NCBI RefSeq assembly: GCF_038396785.1
Contig: NZ_CP151087.1
Span: forward strand, 3,968,001 to 4,032,000
DNA: 64,000 bases
From: Sphingobacterium thalpophilum
GTDB lineage: Bacteria; Bacteroidota; Bacteroidia; Sphingobacteriales; Sphingobacteriaceae
Reading direction: 5' to 3'
Position 1 is the first letter of the stretch, and each line of letters opens with the position of its first letter. Both the position numbers and the translations under genes were made by a program. The notes beneath the pieces are model-generated. The model saw only the letters and a list, made by a program, of their open reading frames with translations. It was not told where the DNA came from and ran no database searches. This document shows, one piece after another, positions 5,081 through 45,435 of this stretch.

Positions 5081-5136
5081 TTTGTACGTACAGAAAAATT
5101 AAGTTAAGTTTGATATACTTAGTTTTTCTGTACGTA
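5081..5136 (+). promoter_or_regulatory. punA promoter with an embedded 20-bp inverted repeat
   Basis: A Bacteroidota-type promoter is visible: TTTG at 5081-5084, a spacer of exactly 20 bases, and the -7 box TAAGTTTG at 5105-5112. The spacer 5085-5104 is itself the left arm of an inverted repeat whose right arm is 5117-5136 (19 of 20 positions complementary, the last a G-T pair). The 12-base loop 5105-5116 contains the -7 box. Transcription would begin at about 5118-5120, so only the right arm, ending on the A of the start codon, is in the mRNA. The layout looks like an operator for a dimeric regulator rather than a terminator. Confidence 0.65.
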
Positions 5137-11352: not shown

Positions 11353-11560
11353 GAAATAAAACGTTAGCGTTTTTTAAAATTTTTGCAAAAATAAGAATGA
11401 TATATCATTGTAACAATAGTATTTAAACAGTAGCGAAATCTAGTTGTAAAAAATGCCATTTTTCACCCACATCTTGTCGGTTGGTGGCGAGAGAAATTGG
11501 GCGGCTTAACCATCAGGATGTCAAATGGGTAAATAATTATTGTTTATGTCTTTAATTGTA

Positions 11561-11592
11561 TTGCATATAAAAAGCAATTTATCTAAGTTTGA
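11561..11592 (+). promoter_or_regulatory. Promoter of the M16 peptidase gene (shared 32-bp element, copy 1)
   Basis: TTG at 11561-11563, a spacer of 20 bases, then TAAGTTTG at 11584-11591. The 32-bp block differs from the block at 43193-43224 before the GT51 gene at only two positions, including the spacer. The left part has a short inverted repeat TTGC...GCAA. Confidence 0.65.
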
Positions 11593-11612
11593 GGTGAAAA
11601 GAAAAAGGAAAT

Positions 11613-14558
11613 ATGATTAAAAACCTATTTAGAATTACTGTTGTTACGTTTGCACTAACAACAGCGGGGTGTGCTTTGTTTGCCCAAAACACCAAATTTG
11701 ATTGGAAAGAAGCATCTGAGGGGGGGTACACCTACAAGTACGTAACCAACGATCCTACACATTCACGGTTTTATAAGCTAAAAAATGGCTTAACTGTGAT
11801 TTTGAGTCCGACCAAAAAAGAACCACGTATTCAAACTTACATTGCAACAAAAGCGGGGAGCAAAACAGATCCGAAAGATCACACCGGTTTGGCCCATTAC
11901 CTGGAGCATATGTTGTTCAAAGGAACCGATAAATTTGGCTCTAAAGACTGGGCAAAGGAGAAGCCTTTGTTAGATCAGATTGATGCACTCTATGAGAAAT
12001 ACAATGGTACAACAGACGAAACCGAACGGAAGGCAATCTATAAGGAAATCGATAAAGTGTCTGGAGAAGCTGCGAAATATGCCATTGCGAATGAGTATGA
12101 TAAATTGATGGCATCAATGGGAGCGGAAGGTACCAATGCTTTCACTTCGTTTGAGCAGACTGTTTATCAGGAGCAAATTCCTAGTAATGTAATGGATAAG
12201 TATCTTGCTGTACAGGCAGAACGATTTAGATATCCGGTATTGCGTCTTTTCCATACTGAGCTGGAAGCTGTGTATGAAGAGAAAAATATCAGCTTGGATA
12301 AAGATAATCGTAAGGCTGTAGAGTCGATGTTTTCAGCAGCGTTTCCCAATAATAATTACGGAAAGCAGACGACAATTGGTACGGTAGAGCACCTTAAAAA
12401 TCCGTCTTTGAAAGCGATTCGTGAATATTTTCATACCTATTATGTCCCAAATAATATGGGGGTGATAATGTCGGGGGATTTTGATCCTACCGAGGTGGTG
12501 AAAAAGGTGGATAAGGCCTTTGCTTTTATGCAGGCGAAAGAGATTCCAGCCTATACTTTTGATGCGGAGAAACCAATTTTAACTCCTGTTGTCCGCGAGG
12601 TTAAAGGTCCGGATGCTGAATTTATGTTAATGGGGTTCCGTTTTCCTGGCGCTGCGACAAAGGATGCCCGTATGCTTAATCTGATGAGTCAGATCTTGAC
12701 GAATGGTTCTGCTGGTCTGATTGATCTGGATTTGGTGAAGAATCAAAAATTATTAGGTGCTGGCGCTTTCCCTTATGTGTTAAAAGACTATTCTTTGCTC
12801 CTGTTGCAGGGTAATCCTGGTCAGGGACAAAGCTTGGAAGAGGTGCAACAGCTGCTGTTGCAAGAATTGGCGAAATTGAGAAAAGGTGAATTCTCGGATG
12901 ATTTGATAACAGCCATCGTCAACAATGCGAAGAAAGACGAAATCAAACAGAACGAAAGCTATGGTGACAGAGCTGAATCATTGATGGATGCCTTTACTTC
13001 GGGTCAGGATTGGGCGTCTGTTGTGGGATATTCGGATGAATTGAATAAAATCACCAAGCAAGATGTGGTGGATTTTGCGAACAAATACTTGAATGACAAT
13101 AATTATGTTGTTGTTTATAAGCGTAAGGGCGTTGATAATAATGTTGTTAAAGTTGTTAAACCTGAGATTACTCCTGTAACGGTCAATCGCGACGATCAGT
13201 CTGAGTTCTTGAAGCGGGTTGAAGCAATGCCAGAGGATAAAATCCAACCGGTATGGGTCGATTATAACAAAGATATTAAGAAAGCTACAGCGAACGGTTT
13301 ACCAGTACTTGCTGTAAAGAACTCAGATAATGAGCTATTTTCGCTGTCTTATCGTTTTGATGGTGGAAAATGGAGCAATAAGTTACTTTCATTGGCTGCG
13401 GGTTATCTTGAATTTTTGGGTACAAAAGACAAATCCAGTGAGCAATTCAGCAAGGATTTCTATCAATTGGCTTCTGATTTTTCGGTGTCTGCAGGAAATG
13501 AGGAAACCATGGTGTCGATTTCAGGTTTGAATTCAAATTTTACGGCTACATTGAGCTTGATTCAGGATTTGTTGCGTAATTGTGTTGCTGATCAGGAGGC
13601 TTTCAAAATGTATATTGCCCGTCTTAAAAAAGCGAGAGCAAATGCGAAAGAAAACAAGGGAGCGATCATGGAAGGCCTAAAATCGTATGCTAAATACGGC
13701 GCTAAAAATCCGTTTAATAATGTGTTTACAGATGCGGAATTGGATGCTTTAAAAGCGGAGGATTTGGTGAAGGCATTGCACGATTTGGCTAATATGAAAC
13801 ATACGATGCTTTATTTTGGCCCGTTAACTGCCTCGGAATTTGCAGCGAAAGCGAAACCTTTGAAACAAGGTGCCGGAGAGTATGTTCAGGCGAAAAAGGC
13901 GGTCGTGTTTGCAGAATTGCCAACAAGCAAGAACCAGGTCCTTTTTGCTAATTTCGATATGAAGCAGGCTGAAGTGTTTTGGTATAGAAGTTCAGGAATA
14001 TACAACAGTGCCTTAACACCGACTGTTTCATTGTTTAATAATTACTTTGGTGGCGGAATGGGAAGTATTGTCTTCCAGACTATCCGTGAATCAAAAGCAT
14101 TGGCTTATTCAACTTATGCTTATTACGGACAGCCTTATAAAAAGGAAAATCACTATACCGTTGGAGCCTATGTTGGGACGCAGGCTGATAAATTTAACGA
14201 TGCGGTTAAAGGCATGAATGAGTTGCTGGATGTGTTGCCTGAAAGTGCTAAGGGTCTGGATATTGCGAAAGTAAGTCTGGAAAAATCAATTGCCAGTGAA
14301 CGTGTATTGAATGCTTCTATCTTAGGTAGTTATCTGGCTGCACAACGTTTGGGGAATGCAACTGATATTCGTAAAGTTGTCTATGAGCAAGCACCAAAAT
14401 TAACCTATGGCGACCTAAATACTTTCCACAAGAAAGAAATGAGTCAAAAGCCGTACGTTTACTGTATTGTAGCGAAGGAAGAAAGTCTTAAGCCAGAAGA
14501 TCTTGCGAAACTGGGCGAGGTTAAAAAGCTGGATCTTAAAGAGATCTTCGGCTACTAG
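11613..14558 (+). CDS. M16 (pitrilysin/insulinase) family zinc peptidase
   Basis: An exported metallopeptidase of 981 residues with duplicated M16 halves. The inverted zinc motif HYLEH is at residues 95-99 (H95, E98, H99), and the third ligand Glu is probably in ELEAVYEEK (216-224). The C-terminal half contains the inactive-half motif GGGMGSIVFQTIRESKALAYS. The N-terminus is hydrophobic and may be cleaved as a signal peptide after ALFAQ or processed as a lipoprotein at the Cys of TTAGC. It probably degrades peptides in the periplasm. It has its own promoter and a strong terminator, so it is a single-gene unit. Confidence 0.9.
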   Translation: MIKNLFRITVVTFALTTAGCALFAQNTKFDWKEASEGGYTYKYVTNDPTHSRFYKLKNGLTVILSPTKKEPRIQTYIATKAGSKTDPKDHTGLAHYLEHMLFKGTDKFGSKDWAKEKPLLDQIDALYEKYNGTTDETERKAIYKEIDKVSGEAAKYAIANEYDKLMASMGAEGTNAFTSFEQTVYQEQIPSNVMDKYLAVQAERFRYPVLRLFHTELEAVYEEKNISLDKDNRKAVESMFSAAFPNNNYGKQTTIGTVEHLKNPSLKAIREYFHTYYVPNNMGVIMSGDFDPTEVVKKVDKAFAFMQAKEIPAYTFDAEKPILTPVVREVKGPDAEFMLMGFRFPGAATKDARMLNLMSQILTNGSAGLIDLDLVKNQKLLGAGAFPYVLKDYSLLLLQGNPGQGQSLEEVQQLLLQELAKLRKGEFSDDLITAIVNNAKKDEIKQNESYGDRAESLMDAFTSGQDWASVVGYSDELNKITKQDVVDFANKYLNDNNYVVVYKRKGVDNNVVKVVKPEITPVTVNRDDQSEFLKRVEAMPEDKIQPVWVDYNKDIKKATANGLPVLAVKNSDNELFSLSYRFDGGKWSNKLLSLAAGYLEFLGTKDKSSEQFSKDFYQLASDFSVSAGNEETMVSISGLNSNFTATLSLIQDLLRNCVADQEAFKMYIARLKKARANAKENKGAIMEGLKSYAKYGAKNPFNNVFTDAELDALKAEDLVKALHDLANMKHTMLYFGPLTASEFAAKAKPLKQGAGEYVQAKKAVVFAELPTSKNQVLFANFDMKQAEVFWYRSSGIYNSALTPTVSLFNNYFGGGMGSIVFQTIRESKALAYSTYAYYGQPYKKENHYTVGAYVGTQADKFNDAVKGMNELLDVLPESAKGLDIAKVSLEKSIASERVLNASILGSYLAAQRLGNATDIRKVVYEQAPKLTYGDLNTFHKKEMSQKPYVYCIVAKEESLKPEDLAKLGEVKKLDLKEIFGY

Positions 14559-43006: not shown

Positions 43007-43192
43007 GTTGTAAATTCCTGCTAGAAAATAAGCTTATTGGAAAGTTGTCATGCCATTGGTCGGAATGGCTTTTATCATTTTTATCCGTCTATGTGTGCTT
43101 AGAAAAACTTCATGTATATTTCCTCAATAAATAAATTCCTCAATAGGCAGAGGAGAGATCGATAAATTACGTATATATGCCACGCAATTAAA

Positions 43193-43224
43193 TTGCATAT
43201 AAAAGCAAATTTATCTAAGTTTGA
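43193..43224 (+). promoter_or_regulatory. Promoter of the GT51 gene (shared 32-bp element, copy 2)
   Basis: TTG at 43193-43195, 20 bases, then TAAGTTTG at 43216-43223. The block matches 11561-11592 at 30 of 32 positions, including the spacer with TTGC...GCAA. Confidence 0.65.
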
Positions 43225-43260
43225 CTGTTGATATGCACGAATTTGCATTAAGTAATAATT

Positions 43261-45435
43261 ATGTCCAATCGATTTATAACATCTTTTAAGTCCCGCAAAT
43301 GGCGATGGCTTTATATCGCTTTAGCTGCTATTTTGGTTTTGGCGATCGCAGTAGGCACGTATGCTTATCAGAAAAGAGATGCCATGCTCATGGGAGCAAT
43401 CAACAAAGCGAAAGCGAAGTTGCTTGAAAAGTATGATATGGAATTGAAGATTCAATATTATGCTTTCCAGGGGATTAATGCCGTACAGTTTAAGAATATA
43501 CAGCTATTGCCCAAAAATAGAGATCAATTGGCTCAAATCAATGATTTGACAGTGTCTGTAAAATTGTGGCCTTTGTTATTTGGGGATGTGAAGTTAGGAC
43601 AAGTTCTTTTAGATAATGGGAAGGTTTCTCTTGTTAAAAAGGATTCGATCAGTAACTACGATTTCCTGTTCAAGAAGCAGAAAAAGGATACTATTGAAAA
43701 TGATAACCCAAAGCAGAATCTGGCGGCCTTGGCAGATCGATTGTTGAAAAATGTATTTTTTAAGATTCCAAATGACCTCGATCTCAAGAACCTTGAGCTT
43801 TCCTATCGTGACGACAGTACTTCACAACGCATTGTAATTCCTTCTGCTGTGATAGACGGCGGAGATATGGAAACCAAGTTTCTGTTAAATGACCATGAGG
43901 CGGCCTGGAATCTGACCGGAACGATTGATTCAGATAATCAAGAATGTGACCTTCGTCTTTTTTCCGATAAAAAAGAGGTAAATCTTCCACTATTACAGCG
44001 CAAATTTGGTCTCGCGGTAAGTTTTGATGAAATATCCTTCCGATTGGACAAGGCTCATCGAAGAAATAAGGAGTTGCTGGAGTTGCATGGGCAATGGGGA
44101 TTTAAAAATCTGAAAGTAAATCACTGGCGTATTTCTAGTAAAGATGTTATTTTTCCTGAGGCCATCATGCAGGGGGCATTGAATATTGGAGCATCATCGA
44201 TTGAAGTGAGCAAAGAAAGTACCGTTCAGGTCAAAGATTTCGTGTTTTCTCCTTATATCAAATATGTGCACAAGCCGGAAAAAGAACTCTTCCTCGCCAT
44301 TCATACCGATAGGATAGAGGCTCAGCACTTTTTTGATGCCATGCCAGTTGGATTATTTCCTGGCTTAGACGGTATTCAGGTGGAGGGGCATATTCAATAC
44401 GATCTAAACTTTGCGCTCGAAATAAAAAAGCCCGAAAAGCTTCTTTTCTCTTCCAAAATGGATGATAGGGATTTAAAAGTCGTTAAATGGGGAGAGGCTG
44501 ATATTGCGATGCTAAATACGCCTTTCACGTATACAGCTTACGAAGATGGTAAGCCGATGCGGGAGATTGTGGTGGGGCCTCAAAACCCTAATTTTACACC
44601 GCTAGATCAAATATCCCGTTATATGCAGATTAGTTTGATCAATACAGAAGACCCCTTTTTCTTTAAACACAAGGGCTTTGAGGAGAAGGCTTTTAAGCTC
44701 TCCATTGCTACAAATATCAAGGAAAAAGGGTTTAAGCGTGGGGCGAGTACGATATCTATGCAACTGGTAAAAAATGTTTTTCTAAATCGGAATAAGACCG
44801 TTGTGCGGAAGCTGGAAGAAATTTTGCTGGTATGGCTGATGGAGCGTTCACAGCAAGTCAGCAAACAACGCATGTACGAGGTTTACCTGAATGTCATCGA
44901 ATGGGGAAATAATGTATATGGTATTACCGAAGCTGCACGCTATTATTTTGGGAAAACACCAGCGCAATTAGGGCTTGGAGAAAGTATATTTTTGTCGAGC
45001 ATTGTTCCACGGCCTAAAAAGGGACTCAACTTTTTTGACTGGACAGGACACCTGAAAGGGAATATGTTGCGCTATTTTAATACCTATGGTCATATTATGA
45101 CCAAAACAGGGCAGATTAGTGTGGATTCAACAACTTCAAATTATGGTTTTTATGAAGTTGTTCTGCAACCGCATCTGCGGGCAGCTCGACCAGCTGTGGT
45201 AGATTCGGTTGATGTATTTGATATGGGAGATGATCCATTGTTGTTCGATCGTCTCGAAAGTAGCTCTCCTGCCGATAATCTTGAAAGTGTATCTGTTCCA
45301 AAGAAGCTAAAACAAATGGATCTAACGGAAAAGAAAGATGAGGAGGCGACTGAACCAGAGAAACCAAAACGATCGCTATTTGACAAGATATTGGGACGTA
45401 AAAAAGAAGAAAAACAAAACGACGCACACAAATAG
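43261..45435 (+). CDS. GT51 peptidoglycan transglycosylase with AsmA-like N-terminal region, no transpeptidase
   Basis: A 724-residue inner-membrane enzyme that would polymerise lipid II into glycan strands. A short cytoplasmic tail and one transmembrane helix (about 14-37) precede about 400 periplasmic residues whose start (GINAVQFKNIQLLPKNRDQLAQINDLTVSVKLWPLLFGDVKLGQVLLDNGKVSLVKKD) resembles AsmA-type proteins. The GT51 domain follows, with NTEDPFFFKHKGFEEKA (catalytic E463), RGASTISMQLVKN, ERSQQVSKQRMYEVYLNVIEWGNNVYGI and ARYYFGK. No SxxK transpeptidase domain is present; the C-terminus is a Lys/Glu-rich tail. It differs both from bifunctional PBP1 and from short monofunctional MtgA (about 240 residues). 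Confidence 0.88.
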   Translation: MSNRFITSFKSRKWRWLYIALAAILVLAIAVGTYAYQKRDAMLMGAINKAKAKLLEKYDMELKIQYYAFQGINAVQFKNIQLLPKNRDQLAQINDLTVSVKLWPLLFGDVKLGQVLLDNGKVSLVKKDSISNYDFLFKKQKKDTIENDNPKQNLAALADRLLKNVFFKIPNDLDLKNLELSYRDDSTSQRIVIPSAVIDGGDMETKFLLNDHEAAWNLTGTIDSDNQECDLRLFSDKKEVNLPLLQRKFGLAVSFDEISFRLDKAHRRNKELLELHGQWGFKNLKVNHWRISSKDVIFPEAIMQGALNIGASSIEVSKESTVQVKDFVFSPYIKYVHKPEKELFLAIHTDRIEAQHFFDAMPVGLFPGLDGIQVEGHIQYDLNFALEIKKPEKLLFSSKMDDRDLKVVKWGEADIAMLNTPFTYTAYEDGKPMREIVVGPQNPNFTPLDQISRYMQISLINTEDPFFFKHKGFEEKAFKLSIATNIKEKGFKRGASTISMQLVKNVFLNRNKTVVRKLEEILLVWLMERSQQVSKQRMYEVYLNVIEWGNNVYGITEAARYYFGKTPAQLGLGESIFLSSIVPRPKKGLNFFDWTGHLKGNMLRYFNTYGHIMTKTGQISVDSTTSNYGFYEVVLQPHLRAARPAVVDSVDVFDMGDDPLLFDRLESSSPADNLESVSVPKKLKQMDLTEKKDEEATEPEKPKRSLFDKILGRKKEEKQNDAHK

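Follow-up and report, generated by a model that had tools for sequence, protein, structure and literature searches.

Two look-alike blocks in the genome of Sphingobacterium thalpophilum, located directly upstream of an M16 peptidase gene and of a GT51 transglycosylase-domain gene, very probably represent the right ends of a mobile element that is non-coding, measures about 100 bp, possesses two hairpins, has TATATTTG as its target and rebuilds the box that it enters. The window analysed here comprises 64,000 nucleotides (positions 3968001-4032000) of the single contig of 5,752,567 bases that represents this genome (G000; related genomes are likewise designated by G and a number). The original prediction suggested that two unlinked envelope genes share a regulator or a special sigma input. 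The promoter-like blocks are indeed placed directly before genes, but an envelope regulon or special sigma input as the cause is not sustained, the blocks being copies of one mobile element before unrelated genes. Since filled and empty versions were found at three loci and the downstream genes are unrelated, the likeness of the blocks is attributed to common descent of a promoter-bearing repeat and not to a regulator of envelope genes.

Both blocks (11561-11592 and 43193-43224, the coordinates originally given) consist of TTG, 20 bases and TAAGTTTG; their agreement, previously counted as 30 of 32 positions, is 29 of 32, with three mismatches. A chance origin of this likeness is excluded, because none of 100 shuffles of the window yielded a match to the block and because 20 places in the whole genome (10 per strand) match it with up to three mismatches, vs none for the reversed block pattern at the same threshold. 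The TTGC...GCAA motif reported within both spacers is out of register, with GCAA shifted by one base (AAAAAGCAATTT vs AAAAGCAAATTT), and TTGC-N9-GCAA was rejected as an operator, its second arm sliding by one base. With up to two mismatches, TTGC-N9-GCAA-N6-TANNTTTG was found 68 + 67 times, vs 33 + 27 times in the reversed control, an approximately twofold difference. A sequence-only model (R1) was built from the 20 whole-genome sites (alignment A1), and a covariance model (R2) represents the whole element. The punA promoter (window 5082-5112) has, as originally reported, TAAGTTTG at 5105-5112, preceded at a distance of 20 bases by TTG. Element sequence is not recognisable there, and R1 did not match it at E ≤ 10 (150 of 6111 candidates scored), so that it may represent either an ordinary promoter or a remnant of great age.

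The blocks correspond only to the right third of the full element, as present at the second site (43115 to 43225). The copies in the window and their parts are the following:

11457-11593, plus strand: decayed copy upstream of the M16 gene, with a hardly recognisable left part (R2 33.2 bits, E 0.0043)
11561-11591, plus strand: promoter-like block at the right end of this copy (TTG 11561-11563, 20-nt spacer, TAAGTTTG 11584-11591)
11613-14558, plus strand: M16 peptidase gene, downstream (Pfam PF00675, PF05193)
43115-43225, plus strand: complete element copy with target halves, before the GT51 gene (R2 108.2 bits, E 3.6e-15; absent in G225)
43115-43121, plus strand: target left half TATATTT, first part of TATATTTG (the empty site of G225 reads GTATATTTGACTG)
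43119-43156, plus strand: hairpin H1, TTTCCTC ... GAGGAGA (covarying pairs in alignment A2)
43122-43219, plus strand: element body, 98 nt, CCTC...CTAAG (filled/empty comparison)
43161-43215, plus strand: inverted repeat H2, left arm GATAAATTACGTATATATGC..., right arm TTGCATATAAAAGCAAATTTATC (covariation; folding z -1.9)
43193-43223, plus strand: promoter-like block at the right end (TTG 43193-43195, 20-nt spacer, TAAGTTTG 43216-43223)
43220-43223, plus strand: the target's TTTG (filled/empty comparison)
43261-45435, plus strand: GT51 transglycosylase-domain gene, downstream (Pfam PF00912, 143.1 bits)

A third R2 match (43261-43151, minus strand, E 0.02) is the same palindrome read backwards, and three further matches in the window (E 0.15 to 2.4) were taken as chance.

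The element is composed, in this order, of TATATTT, H1 (TTTCCTC...GAGGAGA), H2 (GATAAATT..CTTTTATATGCAA, loop, TTGCATATAAAAG..AATTTATC) and TAAGTTTG, with a body of 98 nt in the GT51 and osmC copies and 70 nt in a copy within an uncharacterised ORF, and a GC content of 0.29. Comparison of 40 sites from other genera revealed a long inverted repeat, of which the 32-mer forms one arm, and in many copies conservation extends leftwards to TATATTTCCTC; the right arm of H2 contributes the -33 TTG and the spacer. In alignment A2, consisting of 26 copies chosen for having both hairpins, 88.8% of the paired cells hold standard pairs, and two-sided changes occur in 23 cells, vs 2-5 with slid partners and a mean of 6.6 in shuffles. 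The pairing is DNA-like, since the mismatches (27 G.T vs 35 A.C outside one fixed T.G pair) show no G.T excess. Single-strand folding of four copies gave z values from -1.9 for the GT51 copy to -7.3 for copy L147, and the 32-mer alone folds no better than shuffles.

Comparison of orthologous sites demonstrated that the element is mobile, because filled and empty versions of three loci exist with exact junctions: in all three cases the junction is TATATTT|G, with TTT on both sides. Two of these loci lie upstream of genes and one within a reading frame. At the GT51 locus, G000 is filled and G225 empty (flank identity 53/60 and 56/57); G225 reads CTTCCTGTATATTTGACTGTTG, and G000 reads CTTCATGTATATTT, followed by the 98 nt and TTTGACTGTTG. 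The TAAGTTTG of this copy is thus made of TAAG from the element and TTTG from the target, and the empty site retains TTTGACTGTTG in place. From 30 GT51 loci, with orthologues taken by gene or synteny, 23 were inspected and 19 aligned: 14 have the right end and TAAGTTTG, four of these with the full element, and the other five consist of G225, without the element, and four genomes of a sister clade, which have TACATTTG and no element. The state of G225 probably reflects loss rather than a site never filled, because more distant genomes retain the right end there; instead of by excision, the element could have been removed by a precise deletion from one TTT repeat to the other.

At the osmC-like locus, G225 is filled and G230 empty (flanks 58/60 and 57/57). 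Among 19 genomes, three are filled (G000, G005 and G225) and seven are empty, with GTATATTTG at the same place; the other nine comprise five with another -7-like box and no element, G240 with TACATTTG and no element, and G251, G010 and G210 with an apparent separate remnant. G225 makes the better filled match, as the left flank of G000 agrees with those of G230 and G241 at 58/60 and 59/60 positions, vs only 34/57 and 38/57 on the right, where the first ~20 bases are identical and divergence lies further downstream. This insertion is probably a gain, since the empty state is commoner in outgroups. The close relatives G225 and G230 have opposite states at the two loci, G225 possessing the osmC copy and no GT51 copy, and G230 the reverse. 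The third locus, within the uncharacterised ORF, is filled in G237, G241 and G000 and empty in G167 (two copies) and in another G000 copy, with flanks of 54/60 and 57/57 between G237 (filled) and G167 (empty). A multi-copy family of ORFs without assigned function (236-312 aa) is present in G000:C1:3331500-3338500 and 3303500-3310500 (loci L233 and L234), near a transposase fragment; no Pfam or NCBIfam match was found for these ORFs, which are broken in several genomes.

In the whole genome, R1 detected at least 49 matches at E ≤ 0.01 (150 of 6111 candidates scored), three of which were dropped as left arms of sites already counted, leaving at least 46 sites; at the same threshold, R2 gave at least 12 matches. 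A same-strand ORF start (≥80 aa) was found within 150 nt at 41 of the 46 sites and within 60 nt at 37. The other five are represented by two insertions in an ORF, one site 171 nt before an ORF, a 27-nt match beside the metG site, and one site without an ORF of ≥80 aa. For random positions in the window, the frequency of a same-strand gene start within 150 nt is 5.8%, as determined with another gene caller. The whole-genome scan with mismatches and listing of downstream genes, proposed together with the original prediction, thus places the sites before ORF starts and not at random positions unrelated to gene starts. The element precedes dozens of genes, several of them with basic housekeeping functions. 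According to NCBIfam these include fabD, ndk, metG, murF, aroC, pheT, accD, serS and hisC (pheT and serS being partial fragments below the family cut-off, with matches beginning at residue 1), and according to Pfam, UDP-glucose/GDP-mannose dehydrogenase, epimerase, RimP, OsmC and DUF4254 genes. There is no common theme among them (tRNA synthetases; fatty acid, amino acid and wall synthesis). In G056, one R2 match (L187, 51.1 bits) ends 17 nt before a tRNA-Leu gene.

The target preference was examined in 43 copies with distinct left flanks (some orthologous), selected by TCTAAG/GCTAAG at the right end and TTTCCTC with up to two mismatches at the left, the bases before TTT being free: the four bases preceding TTT are T in 36/43, A in 36/43, T in 30/43 and A in 36/43. 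Primary-sigma promoters of Bacteroidota have a TTG at -33, with a spacing of about 20 nt to the -7 box. Their -7 consensus is TAnnTTTG, as stated in the excerpt available of PMC9723704, and TATATTTG is one form of it. Judged by their sequences, both blocks fit a Bacteroidota primary-sigma promoter, with the -33 TTG and the -7 TAnnTTTG about 20 nt apart. Insertion into TATATTTG takes place after TATATTT and before G, with TTT then present on either side; the right arm of the element brings a -33 TTG at the proper distance, and the terminal TAAG of the element forms a new TAAGTTTG together with the TTTG of the target. The rebuilt -7 box lies where the old one was, so that an insertion into a promoter exchanges its upstream part, while the start point should stay. 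The filled and empty sequences directly document the insertion, the target TATATTT|G, the rebuilt box and the DNA from TTTG onward as unchanged; from the consensus, we infer that both the old and the rebuilt boxes are working promoters used by RNA polymerase. At ndk, whose start was located in 26 of 30 loci, a -7-like box lies at approximately the same distance from the start codon in those relatives of the genus that lack the element.

Across 444,992 bases from this genome and related ones, TATATTTG was counted 66 times, 29 of them inside genes and 11 with a same-strand start within 150 nt, an informal test in which overlapping orthologous regions are included and a gene caller other than that of the 41/46 count was used. 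Sequence preference alone does not account for the 41 of 46 sites before genes: as TATATTTG is mostly not located before genes, either promoters are preferred or other insertions have been lost.

Preservation of the element differs along its length. Of 20 fetched stretches, 16 contain the M16 gene, and 12 of these 16 other genomes have the right end at the same place (TATGTTTG in G225); the remaining four, of the sister clade, have TATATTTG and no element, with flanks too diverged to place a junction. In the orthologues of both genes, GT51 and M16, changes affect the middle of the spacer and the upstream DNA, whereas the right end (TTG.ATAT and CAA.TTTATCTAAGTTTG) is retained with few exceptions. 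Eleven GT51 rows were anchored on CTAAGTTTGA, which is therefore fixed in them; in the unanchored alignment, 14 of 19 have CTAAGTTTGA. In copies that came to drive a gene, selection presumably preserves the right arm and the -7 box, whereas H1 and the left arm decay, as at M16.

Several features of these blocks could also be read as a site for a shared DNA-binding regulator, a protein bound to the arms (TTGCATAT...CAATTTATC) that co-regulates the genes and thereby conserves the spacer. We regard this as unlikely, even though GT51 orthologues keep most of AATTATAATTG and CAAATTTATC as well, beyond -33 and -7, and two inverted arms could hold two protein molecules. Descent from a mobile element already explains the likeness, the middle of the spacer drifts among orthologues both at GT51 (AAAAGC, GCAGTC, ACAGCC) and at M16 (AAAAAGC, CCACAGC, GAAAAGC), the arms covary at variable positions, which a protein site would not need, and the downstream genes lack a common theme.

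Far less probable still is a special sigma factor, or independent evolution of strong housekeeping promoters towards one preferred sequence: TTG-N20-TAAGTTTG fits the TAnnTTTG consensus (excerpt of PMC9723704), but in young copies the likeness spans about 100 bp, an unpaired loop among them, close relatives differ in the presence of the entire element, and TTG-N20-TANNTTTG occurs at 260 sites in the genome, with mostly unrelated spacers among the first 100 listed. The two covarying hairpins directly upstream of genes might likewise suggest a structured, riboswitch-like RNA leader before the start codon. This is equally hard to accept, given that the -7 box lies between the hairpins and the gene, that element-free relatives at ndk and osmC have a -7-like box at approximately the same place, that the stems are without G.T excess, and that one copy precedes a tRNA gene; moreover, searches with 12 loci gave no Rfam family at the gathering score, all eight matches at E ≤ 10 being below it.

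The distribution of the mobile element family is patchy. The exact 31-mer was found in 52 stretches of an 84,980-species collection, 47 from Sphingobacterium and five from Olivibacter (loci L051-L102, whose perfect conservation is by construction). At E ≤ 0.001, R1 matched 12 of 17 same-genus genomes, with no match in the other five, and one of 12 other-family genomes, by a single weak match; G004 and G012 gave no R2 match. In the family sample, with stricter filters, at least 65 of 201 genomes and at least 8 of 25 genera have a match. All counts of these R1 and R2 genome searches are lower bounds, 150 candidates having been scored per genome (28 in the family sample). Within one genome, copies before unrelated genes can be nearly identical: four such copies from Olivibacter share 96-97% identity overall and 95-100% in the unpaired H1 loop, vs a loop identity of 50-68% to the displayed copies of other genomes; in G000, the GT51 and osmC copies are 89% identical overall and 95% in the loop. 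Among 39 copies at least 60% identical to L175, loop identity is only slightly higher within than between genomes (0.564 vs 0.508), a difference reached by 53 of 5000 shuffles. When all copies of the alignment were considered, within-genome identity was not above that between genomes (0.636 vs 0.665), and this low within-genome likeness is ascribed to decay.

With a body of 98 or 70 nt, low GC content, no coding capacity and at least 46 right ends in G000, the element is small, AT-rich and multi-copy, as MITEs are (size range 50-1000 bp, excerpt of PMC4596501), and its presence and absence at orthologous sites with exact junctions at three loci is that of a mobile element. At a length of 3 bp, the TTT found on both sides at these loci may be a target site duplication or equally the element's own first or last bases. 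Terminal inverted repeats are not clear (left CCTCTATAAAAG vs the reverse complement of right CTTAGATAAATT, 7/12 by eye), the clear inverted repeats of the element being H1 and H2. Hairpins at both ends, no evident terminal inverted repeats, an asymmetric target and exact junctions would be compatible with single-strand HUH/Y1-type mobility (IS200/IS605- or REP-like), in which a Y1 transposase reads the end hairpins and no true target duplication arises. An improbable explanation nonetheless, it is opposed by a search for PF01797 (Y1_Tnp) in G000 and 14 control genomes, which at E ≤ 0.001 gave no match in G000, although its lineage had a recent osmC insertion, and was positive in 5 of the 14 controls. 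Plasmids, phages and viral contigs gave no match to the element, and hence no autonomous relative. A DDE_Tnp_1 fragment (PF01609, 23.7 bits) about 160 nt downstream of L186 was rejected as a partner, the element being located in another ORF. A broader proposal, which we advance tentatively and consider rather doubtful, is that working promoters attract the element to their sigma-A -7 box, perhaps when melted in the open complex, and that it rebuilds this box with its own end, enters and takes over promoters of essential genes at little cost and rewires dozens of promoters across the family, by means of an enzyme outside the Y1 family.

In the open-licence literature, as far as its accessible excerpts extend, neither this element nor an insertion into a -7 box that is then rebuilt is described. 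Correia elements of Neisseria have TA as a target. The available part of PMC10969869 presents them as small promoter-bearing MITEs, mostly mapped directly upstream of genes, and in being small promoter-carrying repeats upstream of genes they are alike; they differ in phylum and sequence, whereas here the target is the -7 box sequence, rebuilt from the element end and the target. TnGBS, ISLre2 and some members of the ISKra4 group are DDE transposons inserting in an oriented manner at a fixed place relative to sigma-A promoters; as far as the excerpt of PMC3942029 goes, they enter about 13-17 bp upstream of the -35 and encode a transposase, unlike the present element, which enters the -7 box sequence itself and, at about 100 bp, has no room for a transposase gene. 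The BrickBuilt MITE of Porphyromonas gingivalis, also from Bacteroidota, is intergenic and had promoter activity in E. coli reporter assays, but it contains 23-nt tandem repeats and bidirectional promoters and is situated 49-591 nt from the nearest genes, and a -7-box target is absent from the accessible portion of its description (PMC4596501). REP/REPIN sequences with RAYT (Y1) transposases are similarly short dispersed palindromes; their GTAG/CGTC tags (PMC3733652) are, by eye, not at the ends of the present element, whose genome is without a Y1_Tnp match.

Promoter-bearing repeats and promoter-targeting transposons are thus both known, and the element joins the two, having a -7-box target that is restored on landing. 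It could spread through promoters, those of essential genes included, instead of avoiding them, and offers a concrete case of mobile DNA overlying housekeeping promoters. The natural filled and empty alleles in close strains make an effect on expression directly measurable.

Some copies have a modified structure. In a long form (L141, L052, L199, L165 and L166), H1 and the left arm are separated by an additional internal module of about 48 bp that includes a CATGA motif, and before the DUF4254 gene long and short forms occupy the same place in different species. In Olivibacter, an insert of about 54 bp, in which CCGCCAT..ATGGCGG occurs, interrupts the right arm of L195 (G099:C12:326313-326477). 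The broken ORF at L255 (G237:C1 near 122800) holds, upstream of the element, another insert, which measures about 61 bp and has the palindrome ATGAGCATAGCTCAT.
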